Assembly: GCA_025526915.1 (NCBI GenBank)
Contig: JAHLKH010000193.1
Span: forward strand, 1-48,177
Source: Entophlyctis helioformis
Taxonomy: Eukaryota; Chytridiomycota; Chytridiomycetes; Chytridiales; Chytriomycetaceae
Direction of reading: 5' to 3'
DNA: 48,177 bases
Shown here: positions 8,055 through 42,667 of the stretch, piece after piece
Layout of the letters: every line of letters begins with the position of its first letter
Numbering within the stretch: the stretch's first letter is position 1
Notes under the pieces: generated by a model
What the model saw: only the letters and a program-made list of their open reading frames with translations
Told to the model about the DNA's origin: nothing
The model's database searches: none
Program-made: the position numbers and the translations under genes

Positions 8055-8435
8055 TGCGTTGTGAGAGTTTAGGAAACACGTGTTGCACGTTTGGCAGCGG
8101 CTCATGCTGCATCCTGTGCGGCGAGGGTCTGGGAAACACGCTGGAGAAAGTGCACCTGGGGCTCGAGTACACAGAGGAGCGGAGTGTGGCTATTCGCACA
8201 GCGCATGGGCAGCGTGGCTTGGACGACCGGTTTGCAGCACGCCTGCCTGCTGGTGCACGCCGATCAGAGGACTGTAGGTGTGTCTTTGTCGTGTCACCGC
8301 TGTCACCGCTGTCATCGTCGTCACCAACTCTTGCCTACGTGGCGGGAAAATTTGTCCCGCGGCGTCAATCCGTGGAGCACTACAAAAGCACCTCGTTCGT
8401 GCATCATCCTGCCTCCACACTCCGCATTGACCAGT
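8055..8435. promoter_or_regulatory. Divergent intergenic region between 7047-8054(-) and ABCC(+)
   Basis: No convincing coding exon. It must carry the promoters of both flanking genes by position. A short direct repeat of CTGTCACCG/GTCATCGTCG type units lies at about 8297-8322, about 115 bp upstream of the transporter ATG. No TATA box that I can defend. Confidence 0.35.
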
Positions 8436-28984: not shown

Positions 28985-31491
28985 CTACTGATCCAATGGA
29001 AGGCCGCACATCTCGCACGTGTCGATGCCTGGCCCGTTGACATAGGTGCAGTGCCTGCACGCAACCGGCGCAGCAGAGCGCGCTGGTGCACCACCGCTGC
29101 CAGAGCCAGACCCGCCATCCATGCCGCCAGGCGTGGCACTGGTTGTCGACGTCTCTTGCAGGATCATCATGAGCGTCTGCCAGGACCCGCGCTGCGACAG
29201 TTCTGCAAAGTGTGCCTCTGAACCCGTCTTGACGTACTCTGTCAGCAGACGCAGGTCGTCCTGCATTCCAAATGCGACCGCATATGTCAGACACATGATT
29301 CTCAGGGGGGCGAAAGCAGTCGTCCATGCAGATACGTACCGAATCGAGGATGCCTGCCTCGCTGATAAAGAGCAGTGCGTGGAAATCCGACAGCGCGTCC
29401 ATCGGCTGTGCACCGTTGAGCAGGTTCTTGAGCGCGGCCATGTCGCGCGGCTTGTCGATGCCCATACGGTTTTCGACAGGGAACCCGCGCGAGTTTTTGA
29501 AGAATGGCGACGGCGACGACGGGAATCCGTGCGACACTGTCACCAAGAGGTACTCGACGGGGAACGTGGGCTTGGCGGCGTTCTTGACCATGATGTTGTA
29601 CTCGTTTTTGTACTTGTAGAACACCTCGGGGACGTACTGCTTGTCTGTGGACTCGCACACGCGAACAAGGGATGGGTCTGTGGTGGCCTCGATGACGCTG
29701 TCGCGCGCCATGGCGACACAGGTTTCCGACACTTGGTACGAGAAGATGTCGATGCCGCCGTCATTGTTTCCTGTCGACGCCAATGATGGTCATGTGTGTG
29801 TGTGTGTGAGTGAGTGAGTGGGCAAGACCGAGTGCACGGCCAGCAAGCGAGGCCTACCACTAATGACACAGGTCACAAAGCGGCTGCCAAAGGTGCCGGT
29901 GGGCGAGTACTTTGAGGCGACGGGGTATCTGGACTGGAACTCGCTGGCAAAGAGACACTCGGCCGACGACAAAAAGTACGAGTCGGCATGGCGCTTGCAC
30001 ACGACGGTGCCTGTGCCCGAGCCGTCGTCGGTCAGATCGGTGTAGACGATGCCGACGCGCACGAGGCCGAGGGCAGCGGCCATGGCATCGACCGAAGCCT
30101 CAGCGGGGTCGGGCAGGTCAAGCTGGATCGAGTCGTGAGTGGCGTGTTGGGGCGGCTCGTAGATGGCGGACACGACGGCCTTGACGCCGAGGGGCACTTC
30201 GGAGTAGGGCACGTAGCGGCCGTAGAGGATGCCGGCGCGCTGAGAGCCGGTGGCGCGCCAGAACTGGATAAAGGCGTCGATGATGGCGGGCGACTCGAAC
30301 TCGATGTGGTCGACCATGCGGAAGCTCTGGCTCTGGAGGGTGATTGCCGAGGGCTGGCACTTTGTGCAGATGCCCTGGGGGAAGGGGGCGTGTGCCTTTG
30401 AGGGGCAGGGGGCCTTGACCTTGAAGTCGAGGACGTCGAGGGGATGGACAAAGGCGGGGGAGGAGACGGGGGCGGTCTTGTTCTGCTGGGTGAGCAAGCG
30501 CAGGTAGGCGTGGAAGGACATGTGCTTGATCTTGTTCTCGTCGAGGAAGGCGGCGTCGTACGGCTGCAGGGGCAGGCAGTACTCGCACATGCCAGCGGAG
30601 CCGTGCTTGCAGCTGGTGCGGTGAGATGAGTGGGATGATGGATAGTGAGTGGATGAATGGATGGTTGAATGCAATGGACAGTTGAATGAGGAGATGGACA
30701 GTTGAATGGATGGATAGATGGATGCACAGATGAGACATACAAACGCGCATCGCGGCCGCGCTTGATGGTGCCGTCGAGCTTCTCGAGGTGGTTGTCGAGG
30801 GGGTCCTGCTTGACGAGGAGGGGAGACAGGGGCGTGGCGGTGGCAGAGGGGGCAGAGGGGCAGCAGGAGAGGCCGAGGGGGCTGCAGAGGGGAAGCGAGG
30901 ACAGAGCGATCGTAGACGACGTGGACCAAGTCACCGTGGCTGAGCGAGCGAGATGAGACAGGATGTGTGAGACAGCAGAGAGAGAGAGACCCAGAGAGAG
31001 AGAGAGACACAGAGAGACGCACAGCAGGCCCAGCGAGGCCAGCGGCAGGCCGGGCAGAGCGGACAGGGGCGAGGCACCGGCGGGATCGCGGGCGAGGACA
31101 AAGGGCTGGCTGTCGGGGTGGTGCAGGCCGATGGCGCGGGCGACCTGGGGCGGTGGAGAGACGTGAGACAGATGCGAGCGTGTGGCGAGAGACAGATGCG
31201 AGCGTGTGGGCGAGAGAGAGACGGTCGGAGAGAGAGAGAGAGAGAGAGAGAGACATCAGCCAGTCAGTGTCAGTCTCATAGACAGTCTCATAGACAGCCA
31301 TCAGTCTCACCTGCGCCTTGAGCCCGGCAGCGTCGGTCGAGGCAGCGTCGACCGTCACGCGGGTCTGGCCCGTGGGCGAGCGGATGCGCAGCAGCTGTTG
31401 GTTATCGAGTGTGTGGTTGTGGTTGCATCGTGTGTGAGTGAGTGTCTGCCACACCCTGGCTGGCAGACTGTCCCTCTGTCCCACTGACCAT
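28985..31491 (-). CDS. NPL4: NPL4, Cdc48/p97 cofactor
   Basis: Minus-strand exons 31489-31491 (the ATG alone), 31311-31394, 31023-31144, 30741-30939, 29858-30612, 29340-29770 and 28985-29260; about 622 residues. A UBX-like N-terminus (LLRIRSPTGQTRVTV) leads into the zinc region (CKHGSAGMCEYCLPLQPYD, KHMSFHAYLRLLTQQNK), then the catalytically inactive MPN domain (IIDAFIQFWRATGSQRAGIL, YGRYVPYSEVPLGVKAVVSA), the C-terminal domain, and a terminal NZF finger CRHCTYVNGPGIDTCEMCGL. With UFD1 it delivers ubiquitinated substrates to Cdc48 in ERAD and ribosome quality control. The exon sum is one base over frame: the break lies in exon 30741-30939, between HGDLVHVVYD and PLLVKQDPLDNHLEKLDG, in a C-rich stretch. 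It converges with UXT (122 bp). Confidence 0.94.
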
Positions 31492-31893
31492 GTCCAGGCG
31501 ACGCGTGTGCAACTTGGGCTCGCTGGGGGAAAGAGCGAGAGCCCGGTTCTCATACCAGTACCCCTGGTGGAATCGCTGTGATTGGTGGAATCGCTGTGAT
31601 TGGTCGATCTGGAGAGCCGTTGCGCGGTGCTGACACTGCGAGATGCGAGCACAGCAACGGCAGTGGTGCAGGCAGCAGCGTCTGCTGTCTCGCTGGGCCG
31701 TGCGTGTGTGTCCTCCATGAATAGAGATGGGCGAATGCATAGCCATGTGCAACGCTCTCTCTCTCTCTGAGGAGCATGCCATTCCACACACACACAGACC
31801 AGTGCTCCATGTGTTGCTGCCAACCATCAGTCTGATATTACGAGAGCAGCTTGCCCGTAAAACGACCGACACCAAACACACACAACAACACAC
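31492..31893. promoter_or_regulatory. Divergent region between NPL4(-) and the XPG-Fanzor locus(+)
   Basis: About 400 bp without a supported exon. It contains an 18-bp tandem duplication (TGGAATCGCTGTGATTGG, about 31568-31603) and a CT dinucleotide tract near 31755. If the Fanzor locus is a mobile insertion its left boundary should lie here, but I see no terminal inverted repeat shared with the right side. Confidence 0.4.
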
Positions 31894-33250
31894 ATGGGAG
31901 TCGACGGCAGTCTCCCCACCATCGACAAGAGAGGCGGTGTCAAGACATACAAAGCAGACACCCCTCTGCCCACTGCCATTCAGGCCATTGCCCAGCAGCA
32001 GCCAGATGCAGTAGAAGCAGCAGCAGCAGCCGACTCGGAGCCCATCAGCTGCATCATCCATGTCGACATCGTTTGCCTGCTCTTCATTGACATTATGAGA
32101 GCAGCAGCCGCAAAGCCGCCCCAGTCTGACGACGACTGGAGGCTGCTACTCGAGCCGCTCATCAGCAGCCTCGCCGCAGCCATTGGACAGCTGCACACAG
32201 TTCAGCTGCACGTCGACGGCTCGCAGCTCGACACTGCCACCAAGGCTGCTTATGCCGGGCGGGCCTGGGCGGCATTGGAGGCGGCATCCTTTCTCATGGC
32301 TGAGGCAGCCAAGCGAAATGCCGGCCAGAAGAGCGGCAAGCTCTCGAGGTATGCTCTTGGCTTCTGTTGATCTGCATGCTGTACTGACTCAATGCCATTC
32401 CAGAAACGAGATGCAGCGCCTGCAGAAGGCATACCCCCTCACACGCGAGCGCAAGGCAGCCATCTCGAAGGCCCTGGGCAGTCTTCTTGGATACTTCAAA
32501 GGCGGGTCATCTGTGTGCCTTTGCGAGAACGAGGCGGATGTTTGCATTGCACGCCATTCCGCGAAGCAAGGTTGGTTGGTCTTCTGCATGCTTCTAGAAT
32601 CCATGGCTCACGCGCTTCTTGACAGCGATGTGTCAGTCATGGTCATCAGTGGCGACTCCGATCTGGTGTTCCACTGTGCCGGCTATTGCCCTGTCCTGCT
32701 GCTGAAACTGCGCAGTGGGCAGATCAATGATGCGATCTACAATCACCATGGGATTGCCTCTATTGCAGCCGCCTTAGGCTTGCCAGACATTCCCTTTGTC
32801 TGCCAGTTGGTGGCCGCAATGGCGAGCAATGATACTTTCATTGTGTTGGGATTGGTAGGTTGGCTTGCCTGCTTTGCATTTTTGGATGTCATGCACTGCG
32901 ACCTTGACTTACTCGTGATGCTGCGATGTGGACTTGAAAGGATTGTCACGGCTGCAAAGTGCATCATGGCATGCATTCGTTTGGAGGCAGAGCAGCTGGG
33001 CATCTCTGTCGCGGATGTCTGTCAATGCCTCCAAGACCCCGACATTGCCAGGATGTTTGTGCATGTCATCAAGATCGCATTCATGTGGCAGATGTACAAG
33101 ATCGGCGGCAAGCCTCTTGCTCAGTCATTCAGCAATGCCTTCGCGGTGTTTCTCAACCGTGACGAGAGAGGAGCTGATATTGGAGAGATCACAGCCCCAG
33201 CATGTGGCCATTATGCCAGTGTGTTTGCAGGACAGATGCGGCAGTAAGTC
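31894..33250 (+). other. XPG/FEN1 nuclease domain (N and I regions)
   Basis: The protein begins MGVDGSLP, the XPG-N hallmark start. All seven acidic positions used by FEN1 for its two metals appear present: Asp in IHVDIVCLLF (32064-32066), Asp in QLHVDGSQLDTATKAAYAGR (VDG near 32212, with the following Lys/Arg), two Glu in CENEADVCIA (near 32525), two Asp in ISGDSDLVF (32651-32662) and Asp in AMASNDTF (near 32830). The spacing from ENEAD to GDSD is normal only if a 51-nt intron (32575-32625) is removed, which also keeps phase. A second small intron may lie after 32845. It should cleave branched or flap DNA near ss/ds junctions. It is most like divergent XPG/asteroid-type proteins, not the host's own FEN1, EXO1 or RAD2. 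Confidence 0.75.
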
Positions 33251-36200
33251 TTGGTTTGGATGCACTTGAACAGCATGGCATTGACATGAATGCATGCACC
33301 ATCCAATGGCAACAGCATACTGCCAACAGGACCATCTCGCCCCAAAACAGGTAGGCACGGCTGCGATCTCTGCAGGATTCTTGTGGCACTGACTCTGATG
33401 GATGCCACTGGCAGATCTGCCTCTGCATGCACGCCTACAGCGACTGCTGCTTGAGCCACACGGCACAGCAGCTGAAGGGAAATGCCAGTGGTGCGGTTTG
33501 GCACATCACACGGGACGCAGTCACAGAGCTCGCCAACCACACTGTCAGCAAAGGCGGATGGACGGCGTTTTTGGCAATTCAATGGCTGCCGTGTCGTGCT
33601 TGGCTGCATCCTCCGGTGCACAGCAGATCAGCTTGCCAATGACAGCATCAACGGCCGCGACATTCTTGCTGATATCTGCGAGAATGCAAGCAAGCAGCTG
33701 CTCCAGGCTGTGCACGAGAAGGATCTCGCTACAAAAGGATATGAGATACTCAGCCCAGCTGAGCAGAGCCTGTTACACGCCTTTGTGAGTTTTGGGTGGC
33801 TTGGATGCGTGTCTTGACTGTCCACTGCATGCTGTTGCTGATTTTGAGCATGGCTGACTTGATCCATCACTGGGTGAGCAGATGGTGATCCTGAGACTGC
33901 AGGAACGGCTCAAGAGGTATCCAGGCATCGCATGTGCACCATTCAGGCGTTCAAGGAAGCCAGGTTCGCTCTGCATTTGTTTGGCACAGTGCGACCTTGT
34001 GTATTCACAATCAATCACGGCATTCTTCTGGCAGGCAACCGCAAGGCTAAACAGCACCGCAGAAAGAGCACACGGATCGCACTCGAAAGGCTGTTGCTGC
34101 CATTCGCAAACAGGCCGTAGATACGCTGAATCTCTTGGAATGCCAAAAGAAACACAGCCCGGACGACTTCAAGCCGCCGGCACTTTCTGAGCAGTATCAA
34201 CAAGCCACAGACACGCTGAAACTGATCATTGAGCGAGCTCCAGTGCGTCTTTGCATTTCTATGCTCTGTTTGCATGTGGCGGCTTGATGCACCTGCTCAT
34301 TCTTTGACTTGACAGGTCGGCAAGCCACCGAAAGCGCCAAAGATGCTGCTGCCATCTCCAGCCGCAGCTGATGGCACAGATCGCGACAAGATCCTCTACA
34401 TTGGTGTGCTTCAAGACACAAAGACAACCGTGAGTTGAACTGCAGGCTTGTGATCATGAGCATCTTGCGCACATTCAGAATGCACGCCTAAGATTGCATC
34501 CAAACCGGCAGGAGCCATACCTCGTCACACTGGCCAGACAGGCTGTATTCAAGAAGGAGCGAGAAGAGCGTGCAGAGAAGGCCGGACGGACAAGACCATC
34601 CAGGAGCACAAGAAGGATGCGAGCAGCAAGCCCGCCAGGCTCAATCTGAGGATGAGACACGGGCGTAAGTGGCATAAGGCATGTTGCTGCCTTGAATGTG
34701 CATGCTGACCAGCGCGTTCTTTGACAGATACGAGCGTGGTGAGAGATCAGCAATACGGCAGCTACTGGAAGCAATCTATCGCCTGATTGCATTGCCAGTC
34801 ATGACGGGTGCCGCTGCCATCCATGGCGACGAGCCAAGGCCGGTGGAGAGCACATATGATCGTCCTGAGCAGATTGTCAATCTCGCGGTATGGTTCTGGA
34901 TTGGCATGTTGATCTGCGCATCTGGTTTTGTGTGTGTTGACTTGTGCGATGTGCAGGAAATGCTCTCTGCCGACCCCATCTTTATGAAGGCGTTTGGATG
35001 CCAAGTCAAGACGCTGCCGGCGATGCAGACGCGCGGCACGGTCGTCGAGGACATTTTCAATGCCGTGTATCGGTTTACGGCAAGCATATGGCGCGCGGGT
35101 CTCATTCTGATTGCCGCGATGATCGAGGAGCTGGTCATGCTCAAGCCAGACGCGCCGCTGCCACTTCAATACTGCGTCTTGGAAGCAACAAAGGACGGCA
35201 TGACAACATTCTGTTTTGTCAATCCGGACGACCTTGGCAAGAAGGAGAGCATGGGACTCTATGCCAATGGGTGCGTCCTCAGACAACCATCACCGCGTGG
35301 CAGATGTACGGCGATGGCCCACGCAGCAGCAACAGCAAGCTGCATCGGTATGGCGACTTGGTGACCCTCAGAGCGGCACGGTGCTCAAGATCTGCGAGTT
35401 CAAGGCAGCCAAGAAGGCCACACAGCCTGATGACCACGGCGATCATGGCCACGACAACCACAACGACCACGGCGACCACGACGACCACGGCGAGCATGAT
35501 GAGCAGGGCGTGTCACTCGAGATCTCCTTGCACAATGTGCCCGAGCTGCCTGTGCAGCCTGACGACTTGGACACCCATGACGAGCATGATGTGCACAATC
35601 CAGCAGCAGCATCCAGCGGCACCAATGCTCCACCACAAGCTGTCCAGCGACCAGCCATCCCAACAGCAAATGATCTACTCGCGGCGCTCACCAGCAGCGT
35701 CTCTGGCGGCGAGGGAGCTGTCACGATGCTTCTGCGATACCTCGCGTACATTCTGGCAGGTGGCCAGATGGTCAAGCCACAGCGTACAAGCATGTTGTGC
35801 ACTCATGGCTTGTTACGACCATGCAGATGATCATTCATCGCACTTGGACAAAGGGGATGGTGCAGGACAGCATGGCGCAGATGCAGGAGGATGCAGCCAA
35901 GCTGCGCATGTTTGCAATGGATGCAGACACGGCGGCCGCAACGCAGCAGGCAGCCACAATCCAGGCGTCTGAGATGCAGGATGACGCGGTGCAGATGGAG
36001 GCAGTGCAGATGGAGGCAGACGCCATGGATGGCGTTTTGCCTGGCATTCTTGACAACAGCTTATGCGCAGATGCCATGACCAGTATCTTCAGCAATCTGG
36101 CCAGGGATATCTGCGGCACCCTCTCTACGCATTTTATCTCAAACCAGTCGATGCTGGTGGACGCGGCGATCCACCGCCTGGTTCCTGGCTCGTCTGCCGA

Positions 36201-39055
36201 GGATGTCAAGAAATGGCGCGAGATCATGTCCAAGACTGCCAATGTTGCCAAGGCCGCAAGGCTGCAAAGACGCCGGAGGACGCTAAGGCTGCCAAGGCCG
36301 CCAAGGCTGCTGCCGCCAAGGACGCCACACCACAAGCCACTCTGGATGCCGCCTCTCCCACAGCACGCTGCAAGCGGCCCGCATCAAGCTCTTCATCGGC
36401 CACCAACAGCGCCAAACCCAAGAGGCAACGGCGCAGGAAGGACAAGGCTACCACCAAGGACGGCACGCCTGGCACAACACAAGCCACAGAGGGCCAGGAC
36501 GACGCTGTGCTACCGCAAGCATTGCACAAGCTCATGGCGGTCGAGTGCAACGCGTCATTGTCGCCGGCAGGCAAGTTCAAGCAACTGCGAGATCTCGCAG
36601 GCTCATCCCTCAAGCTGTACCCGCAGCCGGCGAGCCGCGATCCCTTTGTCCTCATCACAGAAACCACCCTCTTTTGGGCTGTCATGGGGGCAAAGAAGGA
36701 TCGCGTACCCACCAAGGACAATGCTGTCTTGCAAGCGTTGAGAGAGCAGCTCCTTGCTGCACTCAGTAGGTCGCATTGCCTGTAAATGCCATGCTTGTAT
36801 GATATGATGCTGACTCTGCACTTTTATCGTATACTACAAAGATGAAGACTTGACACTCGAGTCGCCAAATGACACGATCGAGAAGGCTTCAGCAAAGCGG
36901 GAGCTGGATCCTCGACATCCTCCTCCCTGGACTCTGTTTGAGCGAGCGACGCTTCCAGACACCTGCGGAGGCCAAAGCGCGAATGGACGCGGTTGCCAAG
37001 GCCACAGCCGATGCCACAGCCAAGGCAACGCGAGAGGCTGATGGGCGGGGTCTGGTTGGCAAGGAGCGCGAGGAGCATATCAAGGCTGCGATTGATGCCG
37101 TGTGTCCAGCGAGGCCAATCAAGACAATCAGACTGGGCAGCATCATGACGGATGGATACAGCATCTACCAGCTGGCTCTCGATGGCCGCACAAACCGTCC
37201 AGAGTCGCCTCGCAGTATGTGGCGTGCTTGGATGCTTTGGTTCACACGTTGATTCTGACCACTGCCTTGATCTACAGATCCCAACGCTGCGTCTTCAGGC
37301 GAGCAGCACAGTATTTTTGATGATGGAGGTCTTGGTGGCCTTGGTGGCGTGAATAATTGCTTGGATGATGGCTTGGATGGCGAATGTGAGTTGCTGTGCC
37401 AATCCAGACGCGTTCTTGTTGTCCACACCGACTGACATGCCATCCACAGCCGCCGATCCAGCCGACCCGTCAGCCGCCAAGCCATACACGCCCAATCCTG
37501 TAAGCCACTTGCATGCTAACCTCGCGCATTGGTGCACATGCATTGCACATTCCTCACTCATGCCATGGCATGACAGGGCAAGCGCAACTTTTACGCTTCT
37601 CAGCGACTGCCCAACATTGTCAACGCCAACAATCTGTTCACTGACCAAGGCTACCAGACTGTTCGCGTTGTCAGCTTTGACTGGGGCAAGCGGTACCTGT
37701 ATGGCGCGTCCAGTATCTTGGTCGATCTCAGAGACTTTTCGTATACGCTCGAGTCCAACTACGTGCTCTCCTCTGGCATGGCACATGCTGAGGGCATCTT
37801 TCAGCGGTGGTATGCATGCAATGACTCTGCCACGCGCACTCTTGACCAGATCAACTCACAGTGCCTGCCTCTTGTGCCAGGTTCGCTGACCGACTTGCCA
37901 AGGCAGCCGACATCCAGGCGGCCATTGCATTCAAGACAACAAAGCATGCCGTTCCAGGCGTCAAGCCTGGCGAGAGAGCCTTTTGGGATCTGCGCTGCCA
38001 TGCGTACTGCACGCCATTCTTGAATGCACGGGTACGTTTTCTCTGGTTCTGGATGCCCATTGCCATGGCTGCCATGCTGCTTGATTGCCTGCTGATCACA
38101 CTGGATGGCATGGCATGGCATGGCATTCCACAGAAGGTCAAGGACAAGCGGTTTGCCATGCGCTGCAAGCGCACGTCTGATCGCGGAAACGCTCTTGAGG
38201 GCATCATGAAGCTGGCAGGATCGACCACTGGCAAGCGCGCATCTCATGCGTCTCAGGGCCTCCCTGTCGACCGAACAAAGCCGGCAAAGGACAACATTCC
38301 CGTTGTGTGGGCATTGGGCATCGACTTTACAGGCCAAGGTGGCCGGCACGCTGTGTTTGAGAAGTTTCTCATCAGGCATCTGCGGTCGTCTGGATATGCC
38401 TATGTGCGTCTGATGCCATCCATCCATCCATCCATCCATCCATCTGTGCACCAACTGACACACGATCATGCACACGCACACACACACACAGATCTACCGC
38501 TGCAACGAGAACCTGACCAGCCAGATGTGCCCGCAGTGCAAGCAGCGGATCCCATACGAGAACCGCACCAACCTGCGACGCTACGAGTGCACAGACTGCA
38601 AGACCGTCTACCACCGAGACGTGCTTGGAGCCACCAACATCGGGATGGTCGCACTGTGGCATCTACTCTTTGGACACCGGCCGCTCTACTTGACACACAC
38701 CAAAGCCGACAGCAATCCAGCCACGCCAGAGCACCTCAAACGCATCGCAAGAATGCATATCTCCATCCAGCTGCGTGCACGAGATGCTCCGTCTGTTGTC
38801 CCACAGCCTCAAACGCGGAAACACTTCAAGTCGCATGTGGCCTCATGGGATCAGATCAGCCTGTCGACCAGCAGCGTTCAAGACGTGCTGTACAGCAGCG
38901 TTCAAGACACGGACCATCCGTCGTCCAGCTGCGACCAGCACGCAGACAGCCTGCCCTCAAGTCACTTGACCTGCATCCCACACAGTGACTTGTTTGACCA
39001 CCAACACTTTGAATCGGGGGACCTCCCGATCGACCTAACGGGTCACTTTTTCTAA
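31894..39055 (+). CDS. XPG/FEN1-like nuclease joined to a Fanzor (TnpB-like) RNA-guided nuclease; multi-exon
   Basis: Coding sequence can be followed with phase-compatible introns from an ATG at 31894 to a TAA at 39053-39055, about 2,000 residues if one protein. Securely placed exons include 31894-32348, 32404-32574, 34957-35270, 37577-38031, 38134-38403 and 38492-39055. Order: XPG nuclease domain (to about 33250); a region with a CQWC motif; a Lys/Gln-rich helical region (34000-34730); a helical block; an Asp/His-rich linker (about 35440-35515); a Lys/Ala-rich basic segment (KPKRQRRRKDK, probable nuclear signal); then the Fanzor RuvC core and zinc ribbon. The alternative is two genes, with XPG ending TGA at 33815-33817 and Fanzor starting ATG at 33882; against this, GTGAGT at 33784 and CAG at 33881 form a phase-0 intron. 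About nine one-base frame breaks occur (e.g. near 33620, 33940, 34087, 34575, 34620, 35363, 35783, 36255, 36960, 37870), so decay or assembly error must be resolved. Confidence 0.7.
37577..38850 (+). other. Fanzor RuvC catalytic core and zinc ribbon
   Basis: Three exons (37577-38031, 38134-38403, 38492-39055). RuvC-I: VRVVSFDWGKRYLYGASS with Asp at 37679-37681. Bridge region: KVKDKRFAMRCKRTSDRGNA. RuvC-II region: IPVVWALGIDFTGQGGRHAV followed by FEKFLIRHLRSSGYAY and YRCNENLTSQMCPQC. Here Glu at 38507-38509 sits just before TSxxC, the displaced Glu position described for Fanzor proteins as opposed to bacterial TnpB. Zinc ribbon: CPQC (38528) and CTDC (38588). RuvC-III: VYHRDVLGATNIG with Asp at 38618-38620. 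Together these identify the TnpB/Fanzor family, programmable RNA-guided DNA endonucleases. All catalytic residues are present. The frame shifts once between RuvC-I and the following helices (near 37870). Confidence 0.85.
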
Positions 39056-39060
39056 CGATA
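38950..39060 (+). ncRNA. Candidate omega-RNA / structured right end of the Fanzor locus
   Basis: Known Fanzor and TnpB guide RNAs derive from the 3' end of the gene and its flank. Here the last ~100 nt of the frame hold nested inverted repeats: AAGTCACT (38959-38966) with AGTGACTT (38984-38991); the same AGTGAC with GTCACT (39042-39047), so the two helices are mutually exclusive; and a hairpin ATCGGG/CCCGAT (39013-39030). A TTTTT run follows at about 39048. The guide would then be copied from sequence just downstream. This is structural suggestion only. Confidence 0.3.
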
Positions 39061-39282
39061 AAGGTGAGCACTTTGTTGGATGTGCATCGCCCGCCTGTCG
39101 TCGCATGCTCGTTGCTGACTCGAACCTGCCATCGTGTGATGTGCGGGCTTGCATTCGACGCCTCTTGCGACGAATTGTATTCCAAAATGCTTGGTAATTG
39201 TATGAATATCGGGCCACAAGAGCGAGCGATTGCGCAACTAAACTCAACAACAACCACTTGAACGCTGTTGCTGCTGCCGCCC

Positions 39283-41429
<2,147 letters not shown>

Positions 41430-41736: not shown

Positions 41737-42336
41737 TCACTCTATAGCAGACACGTCGCCTGCCGCCGCTGCCGTCTCTGACACGCCCATCGCCGCCACG
41801 GACGCCGCAAGAGCGCCGACCTCACCACCAGCATTCGCAGCATTCGCAGCATTCGCCGCCGCAGCAGCGGCATTCGCAGCGGCAGCATTTGCAGCAACCA
41901 ACTCCTTGTCGTCGTCAGCGGCCAGCCGCCCAAGCCGCCGCCCGACACCCAACCGCTTGGGCACATTCACATGCGCATGATACTTGCGCACCAGCAACGT
42001 GGCGTCGCGGCCCACGCCCTTGAGCAGATAGTCGAGCCCGCCCGGATGGTCAAACGTCGACACGTCGTACACGACCCCGTCGACCGCCATCCACTGGCCC
42101 GACTCTTCCGTCTTGTGCGACGCGAGCGCTGAGGCGCTGATGGGCGGCAGGTCGGACGCGGCGGCGGTCGGCGTGGGCAGCCGCGCGTGCGAGGATTTGG
42201 GCGAGTGCGATGTCGAGCCGCCGCTGTTGCCGCTCTTGTCGAGATCGTCTTTGCCGGGCGGTGTCGATGGCGAGACTGCCGATGCCGACGGGCTGCCGCT
42301 GCCGCCGCCACGAAACTTTTGCAGCCAGGATTGCAT
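41737..42336 (-). CDS. Cytochrome b5-like heme/steroid-binding domain protein
   Basis: One exon, 199 residues, start MQSWLQKFRGGG. After a Ser/Pro-rich N-terminus a cytochrome b5 core runs from about residue 97: QWMAVDGVVYDVSTFDHPGG with the axial-His HPGG motif, then LDYLLKGVGRDATLLVRKYH, where the second His (KYHAHVN) would be the other heme ligand. The C-terminal tail is Ala/Asn-rich (AANAAAANAAAAAANAAN) and probably disordered. No membrane anchor. The domain resembles the small soluble b5-domain proteins (CYB5R4 N-terminal domain / CYB5D type); partner and pathway are unknown. The domain is slightly short, so heme binding is likely but not certain. It is a single-exon gene, unlike its neighbours. 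Confidence 0.85.
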   Translation of the reverse strand: MQSWLQKFRGGGSGSPSASAVSPSTPPGKDDLDKSGNSGGSTSHSPKSSHARLPTPTAAASDLPPISASALASHKTEESGQWMAVDGVVYDVSTFDHPGGLDYLLKGVGRDATLLVRKYHAHVNVPKRLGVGRRLGRLAADDDKELVAANAAAANAAAAAANAANAANAGGEVGALAASVAAMGVSETAAAAGDVSAIE

Positions 42337-42667
42337 TGCGTTGGTGCGGTGTCGGTCAGTCGGTCGCCTTGCGTTGGAAAGGGTCGGCTGGCGTCTGGGC
42401 AAGGTCGCAATATATCCATGCCCGCACAATCAGCTCGTCATGCCTGTCATGCCGTCATGACGCAGCCAAATCTCGCCGAGATCGTCGCGCTATTGACGTC
42501 ATTCTTATCGGCGCGCCGAGTCCAGGTGCAACACGCACGCTGTGAGCGCGCAGAGGGTGAAGCACATGTCCATGTTCGTCCATATTGTTTCATTGCCCAA
42601 GTCTGGCCAGCACCGCCGCGTTATCCAGAGACAAACACTGCCGCACTGGCCAACGCTATGCATCCAT
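42337..42667. other. Intergenic, tandem minus-strand genes
   Basis: About 330 bp between the start of the b5-domain gene and the eL33 stop. Presumably the b5-gene promoter plus eL33 3' UTR; no recognisable gene on either strand. Confidence 0.4.

Follow-up and report, generated by a model that had tools for sequence, protein, structure and literature searches.

Among the systems with which a Fanzor-bearing transposon of a chytrid fungus can be compared is SPu-1 of Spizellomyces punctatus, whose Fanzor is SpuFz1. SPu-1 is a multi-copy element bounded by terminal inverted repeats (TIRs), with a gene encoding a Fanzor1 protein and no transposase described between the inverted repeats (PMC3627910, PMC10432273); it is about 2.1 kb long and has one 633-aa open reading frame, 33-bp TIRs and putative TA target-site duplications (TSDs) (PMC3627910). 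Other Fanzor1 elements with TIRs have 9-bp TSDs, likewise without a transposase, and no second nuclease is named for them in the available passages (PMC3627910). The closest prior case that we know of, with a Fanzor and a second nuclease within one transposon, is the Mariner element PGv-1, which encodes, next to the Mariner transposase, a GIY-YIG nuclease as a protein of its own (PMC3627910). The natural role of Fanzors is described as open (PMC10432273). Here we analyse a 48,177-nt stretch of DNA, the window, which is contig JAHLKH010000193.1 (C193 in our numbering) of the 29,569,594-base genome assembly of the chytrid Entophlyctis helioformis, and report that it carries one copy of an abundant TIR transposon whose single long gene probably joins an N-terminal XPG-like nuclease domain to a C-terminal diverged Fanzor. 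Like SPu-1, the chytrid element is a multi-copy TIR element with a gene for a Fanzor1-type protein; unlike SPu-1, it measures about 7.2-9.8 kb and makes an 8-bp TSD, and its gene, interrupted by 18 introns, encodes an XPG-like domain and a middle of some 970 aa. The 8-bp TSD also differs from the 9-bp duplications of the other Fanzor1 elements, to which we liken it by description rather than by TIR sequence, and in contrast to PGv-1 the second nuclease domain lies in the same frame as the Fanzor.

The feature is a whole DNA transposon at 31540-39215 of the window and not just the segment 31894-39055, as a preliminary description made from the DNA letters had delimited it. Its left TIR (AGCCCGGTTCTCATACCAGTACC, 31540-31562, plus strand) has two mismatches to the left-end sequence GGCCCGGTTCTCATACCATTACC, and its right TIR (GGTAATTGTATGAATATCGGGCC, 39193-39215, plus strand) was recognized from genome-wide pattern matches; over 23 bp the left end GGCCCGGTTCTCATACCATTACC and the right end GGNAATTGTATGAATATCGGG are imperfect inverted repeats with four differences. 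At up to three mismatches the left end has 86 matches across the genome and the first 21 bases of the right TIR have 199, while reversed-pattern controls gave none for either. The 8-mer AGAGCGAG flanks the window copy at 31532-31539 and again at 39219-39226; the right 8-mer starts 3 nt past the TIR, so that the duplication register is imperfect in this copy. Over the family, 13 of the 18 copies with both ends show an 8-base flank repeat at 7/8 identity or better, as against 14 of 306 mismatched pairings. The range of element lengths comes from paired ends, namely 73 of the 86 left ends and 75 of 100 listed right ends; these 100 are drawn from the 199 matches, which makes the pairing fractions lower bounds, and 10 of 25 further left-right pairs were taken for sequence examination. 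Between the left TIR and the gene lies a 5' region (31563-31893, plus strand) that opens with short tandem repeats, CTGGTGGAATCGCTGTGATTGGT..., whose number varies among copies.

The same arrangement recurs through the genome in a fixed order. An XPG exon-1 query from copy L044 found 145 genome matches (all 149 candidates scored), a spliced XPG N-terminus found 176 matching stretches (99% to 25% identity among the matches listed), and the Pfam family Cas12f1-like_TNB (TNB) was matched at least 150 times, with 150 of 205 candidates scored. An XPG exon lies 0.2-4 kb downstream of 65 of the 86 left TIRs, never in the mirror direction and once on the opposite strand within 4 kb; this count uses the 145 exon-1 matches and six further XPG places, the exon-1 matches alone giving 61 of 86, and a shortened XPG list applied to 73 left ends gave 62. 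Two of the left ends with no XPG exon downstream are right ends read backwards. From 144 of the 145 exon-1 places (one overlapping piece was left out), at least 58 are followed on the same strand by a listed TNB match at 4.5-9.5 kb (median distance 6.6 kb), with none in mirror order and one on the opposite strand, and at least 73 have either a listed TNB match or a right end downstream. An earlier pairing set agreed, with TNB 3-12 kb downstream of 48 of 103 XPG places, no case of the wrong order and two on the opposite strand. Since left TIR, XPG, TNB and right end follow one another in this order with no same-strand mirror case, the element begins with XPG and ends with Fanzor. Compared directly with the window, copies L039-L046 all have its right end (39213-39220), and six of the eight align at its left end (31540-31565), to which the other two, L044 and L045, show no nucleotide match. 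Copies L047-L052 belong to the L043 group, two of them (L047 and L052) at full length and L048-L051 interrupted, cut or partly covered.

The gene itself is best seen in copy L039 (contig C26), in which 19 exons form an intact spliced frame of 1925 aa, from MGVDDSLPTI to SDLFDYQL, across 18 introns of 55-204 nt. This frame depends on the sites chosen at introns 5, 12 and 14, and another intron-5 acceptor would give 1934 aa. Unguided splice searches were rejected, their models being fragmented or read-through, and the introns were then placed by conserved GT/AG columns. When the window copy is aligned with seven others, the 18 short introns recur with mostly conserved GT/AG ends, single sites being shifted in some copies, which upholds the preliminary description's same-strand, phase-compatible short introns. 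A small linker exon joins the XPG exon in frame to the downstream exon in the divergent copies L044, L045 and L054 as well, and the junction of L064 has the same layout (both judged by eye). With the open frame of L039, this supports the proposal that XPG and Fanzor are joined in one gene; a single gene spanning both parts probably exists, and fusion is the best-supported reading of the aligned sequences.

By alignment to L039, the plus-strand exons of the window copy run as follows. Exon 1 (31894-32348, ATG at 31894) holds the N-terminal XPG-like part with the first D and DG..K..R, exon 2 (32404-32570) the ExEAD motif, exon 3 (32626-32854, 4 nt off the L039 length) GDSDL and the D of the NDY equivalent, and exon 4 (32941-33243) a helix-hairpin-helix-like segment and the end of the domain, where other copies give a sub-cut-off XPG_I_2 match. 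The mini-exon 5 (33316-33350), placed from the L039 model and with equivalents in L044, L045, L054 and L064, links the XPG-like part to the rest. Exons 6-12 (33441-33784, 33882-33963, 34035-34242, 34316-34429, 34512-34664, 34728-34887 and 34957-36765) would encode the middle of about 970 aa; two L039 pieces of it matched no Pfam family at E<=1, and that of L044 and L045 gave just weak, unrelated matches. Exons 13-15 (36842-37214, 37278-37308 and 37391-37499) include a TDG motif at codon 37148, exons 16-18 (37577-37809, 37881-38031 and 38134-38403) the Fanzor RuvC segment, and exon 19 (38492-39055) the zinc ribbon and C-terminal tail. Nine of the first 18 exons differ from L039 in length by non-multiples of three, although a few of these differences may stem from how exon edges were aligned, and the window copy is therefore probably frame-disrupted and decayed; its stop at 39053-39055 lies beyond the position of the L039 stop.

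The C-terminal part is, by its motifs, a diverged Fanzor of the Fanzor1 type. Cas12f1-like_TNB passes its cut-off at 38489-38641 of the window (E 2.2e-10; 4.4e-10 in L039), and the catalytic D, E and D stand at codons 37679, 38507 and 38618, the last as the D of RD, around a C4 zinc ribbon at 38528-38599; the preliminary description's Fanzor core with D/E/D and zinc ribbon is thus present. Against the published Fanzor motif D-X(125,275)-[TS][TS]XX-C4-X(5,50)-RD (PMC3627910), L039 reads D1573, 188 residues, TS, C4, 5 residues and RD. A TDG, like the one that marks the Fanzor1 WED domain (PMC10711439), occurs at position 1470 of L039, 103 aa ahead of the RuvC-I aspartate, and in other subfamilies too. 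E1759, three residues ahead of TS, is invariant in a five-sequence RuvC alignment, and may be the equivalent of Ealt, the alternative RuvC-II glutamate. One feature speaks against a Fanzor assignment: RuvC-I reads DPG in Fanzors and DPhiG in most TnpBs (PMC10711439), whereas it is DWG here, invariantly in the five aligned sequences, and we therefore regard the protein as diverged. A PDB search with the Fanzor part returned one weak zinc-ribbon match (E 0.79). With its TIRs and 8-bp TSD, the carrier of this Fanzor is a eukaryotic transposon other than IS607.

The case for an XPG-like N-terminal domain is good but not final, and it rests chiefly on conserved residues. As the preliminary description held, all seven acidic positions of XPG/FEN1 are present in the window copy (D 32065, D 32215, E 32525, E 32531, D 32654, D 32660 and D 32831, by alignment to L039), in an order that we take to be that of the metal ligands in the XPG/FEN1 family. 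Six of the seven acidic columns are invariant in eight sequences from several subfamilies, and all seven are acidic in the window and in the two groups of copies A and B; the eight all have D59, D109, G110, K118, R124, E196, D198, D219, D221, D279, G287 and A291. XPG_I_2 is the best Pfam match of the public proteins P0001, P0002 and P0003 (E 0.0038, 0.038 and 1.9e-4), and six of the eight alignment members match it at E<=1. The domain thus resembles the XPG/FEN1/EXO1/Asteroid superfamily in the order of its acidic motifs, its helix-hairpin-helix-like segment and its best Pfam match, and differs from it in lying below the Pfam cut-off and in being linked with a Fanzor within a mobile element.

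A series of profile and structure comparisons did not strengthen this case. XPG_I_2 stays below the Pfam cut-off in every protein tested (best 21.5 bits against 24.2), and XPG_N and XPG_I gave no Pfam match in the XPG-like proteins tested. Because the XPG families remain below cut-off, we call the domain XPG-like and do not file it as an XPG/FEN1 member. At position 194, the first residue of ExE, the sequences carry E, D, N or A, two of the eight having A or N. One alignment member matches the unrelated Alpha_kinase family (E 0.0083), and other single members show weak unrelated matches. An hhalign comparison with 60 FEN1 sequences was not significant, at P 0.11 with reversed controls at 0.59 and 0.44; the stretch aligned was the DY..GIG segment. 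A PDB search with the XPG profile found no nuclease and one unrelated match, and a six-frame genome search with PF12813 gave three matches at two places, none in a mapped element copy. Finally, an AlphaFold model of the domain was unusable (predicted local distance difference test score, pLDDT, 38.7) because the six-row alignment was too shallow; for the XPG/PIN-like fold first suggested for the 5' part, the prediction was run and neither places nor excludes it. A PDB sequence search with the XPG part gave no match, and the window XPG exons read unspliced gave no XPG match in Pfam. Matches to PF00867 or PF12813 outside the mapped copies (C1:247972-248253, C43:113076-113324, C2:291198-291499 and C38:89474-90367) probably represent the host's own repair genes.

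Substitution patterns point to constraint on the coding region and to exchange among copies. Comparison of groups A and B puts the ratio of nonsynonymous to synonymous substitution rates (dN/dS) of the XPG part at 0.37-0.41, with a dS of 0.65-0.73, and that of the middle region at 0.25-0.56; L039 set against four further copies of group A gives 0.17-0.21 for the XPG part. The RuvC ratio between the groups is 0.46-0.80 at a dS of just 0.09-0.15, where changes are few and the ratio is weakly constrained, and dN/dS therefore demonstrates selection on RuvC poorly. Set beside the XPG dS, that low RuvC dS makes the 3' third of the gene look as if it had been exchanged lately between groups A and B. 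L043, L044 and L046 look mosaic, with 5' and 3' parts from different subfamilies, and the groups resemble each other much more closely in the RuvC segment and 3' end than in XPG, as gene conversion would give.

The 3' end of the element (38995-39213, plus strand) is a candidate omega RNA (reRNA) scaffold. Mean column identity is 84% over 20 copies, and two short hairpins are kept in 19-20 of the 20; some of this identity may be owed to exchange between groups. Covariation is little and counts against such a role, with double changes at 2 of 43 predicted pairs, and no Rfam match was found within 38400-39400. Fanzor1 reRNAs are reported to run beyond the TSD by about 15 nt, and both TIR and TSD are predicted to belong to the scaffold (PMC10711439), which makes a flank-derived guide plausible here. 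We infer that the 3' end probably supplies the omega RNA, with host flank sequence as its guide.

Beyond the arrangement seen in the window, several variants occur. The subfamilies of L067-L076 carry an additional 5' region, 1.2-1.5 kb long and about 85-95% alike among copies, and the ten such regions examined all have one stretch in common; stop-free minus-strand runs reach 339 aa (L067) and 229 aa (L076), and seven open stretches, from four translated copies of the ten with the frames of two listed, gave no Pfam match. L007 and L076 are internally deleted elements of about 1.0 and 2.2 kb in which the two TIRs, the final Fanzor exon and the 3' end are retained, and could possibly be guide-only passengers. 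In the clade of L001, L004, L005, L006, L008 and L044 the right end extends about 38-48 nt further (CCATTTGCCGGCGGTTTGCC...CCCACCCC), and the terminus therefore differs. No left TIR was found for L040, where an imperfect direct repeat of about 28 bp (TATATGGTT.GCAATGC...GGGGAACC) flanks both sides. The window copy itself sits between an NPL4 gene (29790-31823, minus strand) and an NKAP gene (C-terminal domain at 40671-41381, plus strand), with a cytochrome b5 domain at 41737-42426 on the minus strand, all from Pfam matches. A separate repeat at 8088-8238 of the window is 84% identical over 151 bp to DNA about 0.2 kb to the right of the L043 element.

Taken together, we think it likely that the TIR transposon has a single protein product of about 1925 aa, with XPG-like, middle and Fanzor1-type parts, that would re-cut the empty site and process the resulting R-loop or flap so that repair restores the element. 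The element's 3' end before the right TIR would give rise to the omega RNA, with host sequence at the insertion point as guide; the Fanzor part would recognize and cut an empty site, whether excised or on the sister, that matches this guide; the tethered XPG-like domain would act at the Fanzor cut, cleaving 5' flaps or the flank of the R-loop and trimming the ends; and repair would copy the element from the occupied homologue back into the cut site. What the sequences show directly are the ends of the element, its TIRs, TSD, copy number and gene order, the unbroken spliced frame of L039, coding-region selection and the conserved motifs; the RNA guide, catalysis, the processing of R-loops or flaps and the repair outcome are proposals. 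Fanzor cutting at the sister chromosome has been suggested to promote propagation of single-stranded DNA transposons or to help other transposons in trans (PMC10432273). Purified XPG robustly cleaves the 3' R-loop flank and leaves the 5' flank largely untouched, and in a Cas12a-like architecture the 3' flanks are distal to the protospacer-adjacent motif (PMC7286691), so each Fanzor target could present a tethered XPG-like domain with a substrate. No transposase was recognized by Pfam in the middle of L039, L044 and L045 or in the seven open stretches of the extra 5' region, and a trans-acting transposase was not searched for. Movement to new sites would require one.

Other explanations bear on each part of this account. 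The transposon might instead hold two genes, one for an XPG-like protein of about 400 aa that ends just inside intron 5 and one for a Fanzor downstream, or intron-5 retention might yield an XPG-only isoform. Two public gene models, P0001 of 397 aa and P0002 of 349 aa, do end just after the XPG domain, P0001 at a TAG that we read as part of the intron-5 donor, and the public models divide the gene into separate hypothetical proteins, separate Fanzor fragments among them. A stop soon follows when groups A and B or L044 are read past the exon-5 donor, and under a first set of 17 introns all seven aligned copies other than L039, among them the window copy, ran into an earlier stop. These results count against a single frame; yet the linker exon and its frame are kept across divergent subfamilies, L039 is open through the junction, and an intergenic region would not fit, which leaves two genes or a truncated isoform an unlikely outcome that deserves to be kept in view. 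A different question is whether the XPG-like domain cuts at all. Inactive relatives with the XPG fold exist, the first glutamate of ExE is replaced by A in L044 and by N in L065, and the top Pfam match is XPG_I_2 rather than XPG_I, all of which would suit a nuclease-inactive binding module; six of seven acidic positions invariant in all eight sequences, together with purifying selection, argue for retained activity, and we consider an inactive domain unlikely.

It is rather improbable that the protein itself transposes, its middle being a very diverged transposase or its XPG domain nicking the TIR ends. That the gene fills the element in short subfamilies, that most left ends lead into XPG, and that the common stretch of all ten extra 5' regions offers seven open stretches with no Pfam match would be in keeping with it, whereas the middle matches no transposase profile and the minus-strand runs of the common 5' stretch could hide a protein of their own. 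Still more speculative is a self-contained mobility enzyme in which RNA-guided recognition and branch-nuclease cutting replace a DDE transposase; we hold this to be doubtful, and such a route would be unlike any transposon mechanism known to us. That an XPG-like fragment and a Fanzor merely came to lie side by side by chance, the genome being rich in repeats, might be entertained from the frame-disrupted window copy by itself, but the constancy of order and spacing in at least 58 copies makes it exceedingly improbable. Chance pairing was rejected on the mirror controls, which were zero for both the XPG-TNB and the left TIR-XPG order.

Within the literature searched, the combination of an XPG-like domain and a Fanzor appears new among Fanzor-bearing transposons, in line with the preliminary description, which knew of no XPG or flap nuclease partner. 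No paper pairing Fanzor with XPG and none treating Fanzor with Entophlyctis was found in a search that left subscription papers and preprint servers mostly outside its scope, and TnpB and XPG were mentioned together just in separate passages of the available texts. Among about 5.8 billion proteins nothing resembled the full-length protein; an XPG profile returned three proteins and a RuvC profile ten, all from Entophlyctis helioformis, in searches that need shared 5-residue words, scored 7990-7996 candidates each and could let distant relatives elsewhere escape. The suggested co-occurrence of the two domains thus holds across the repeat family of this genome, and the protein searches found no other species with it. 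In this small genome, then, with well over a hundred copies, a Fanzor is apparently tied physically to a second, structure-specific type of nuclease. Such an element makes a repair or homing step directly testable, and it would show, in nature, a guided cutter equipped with its own domain for processing ends.

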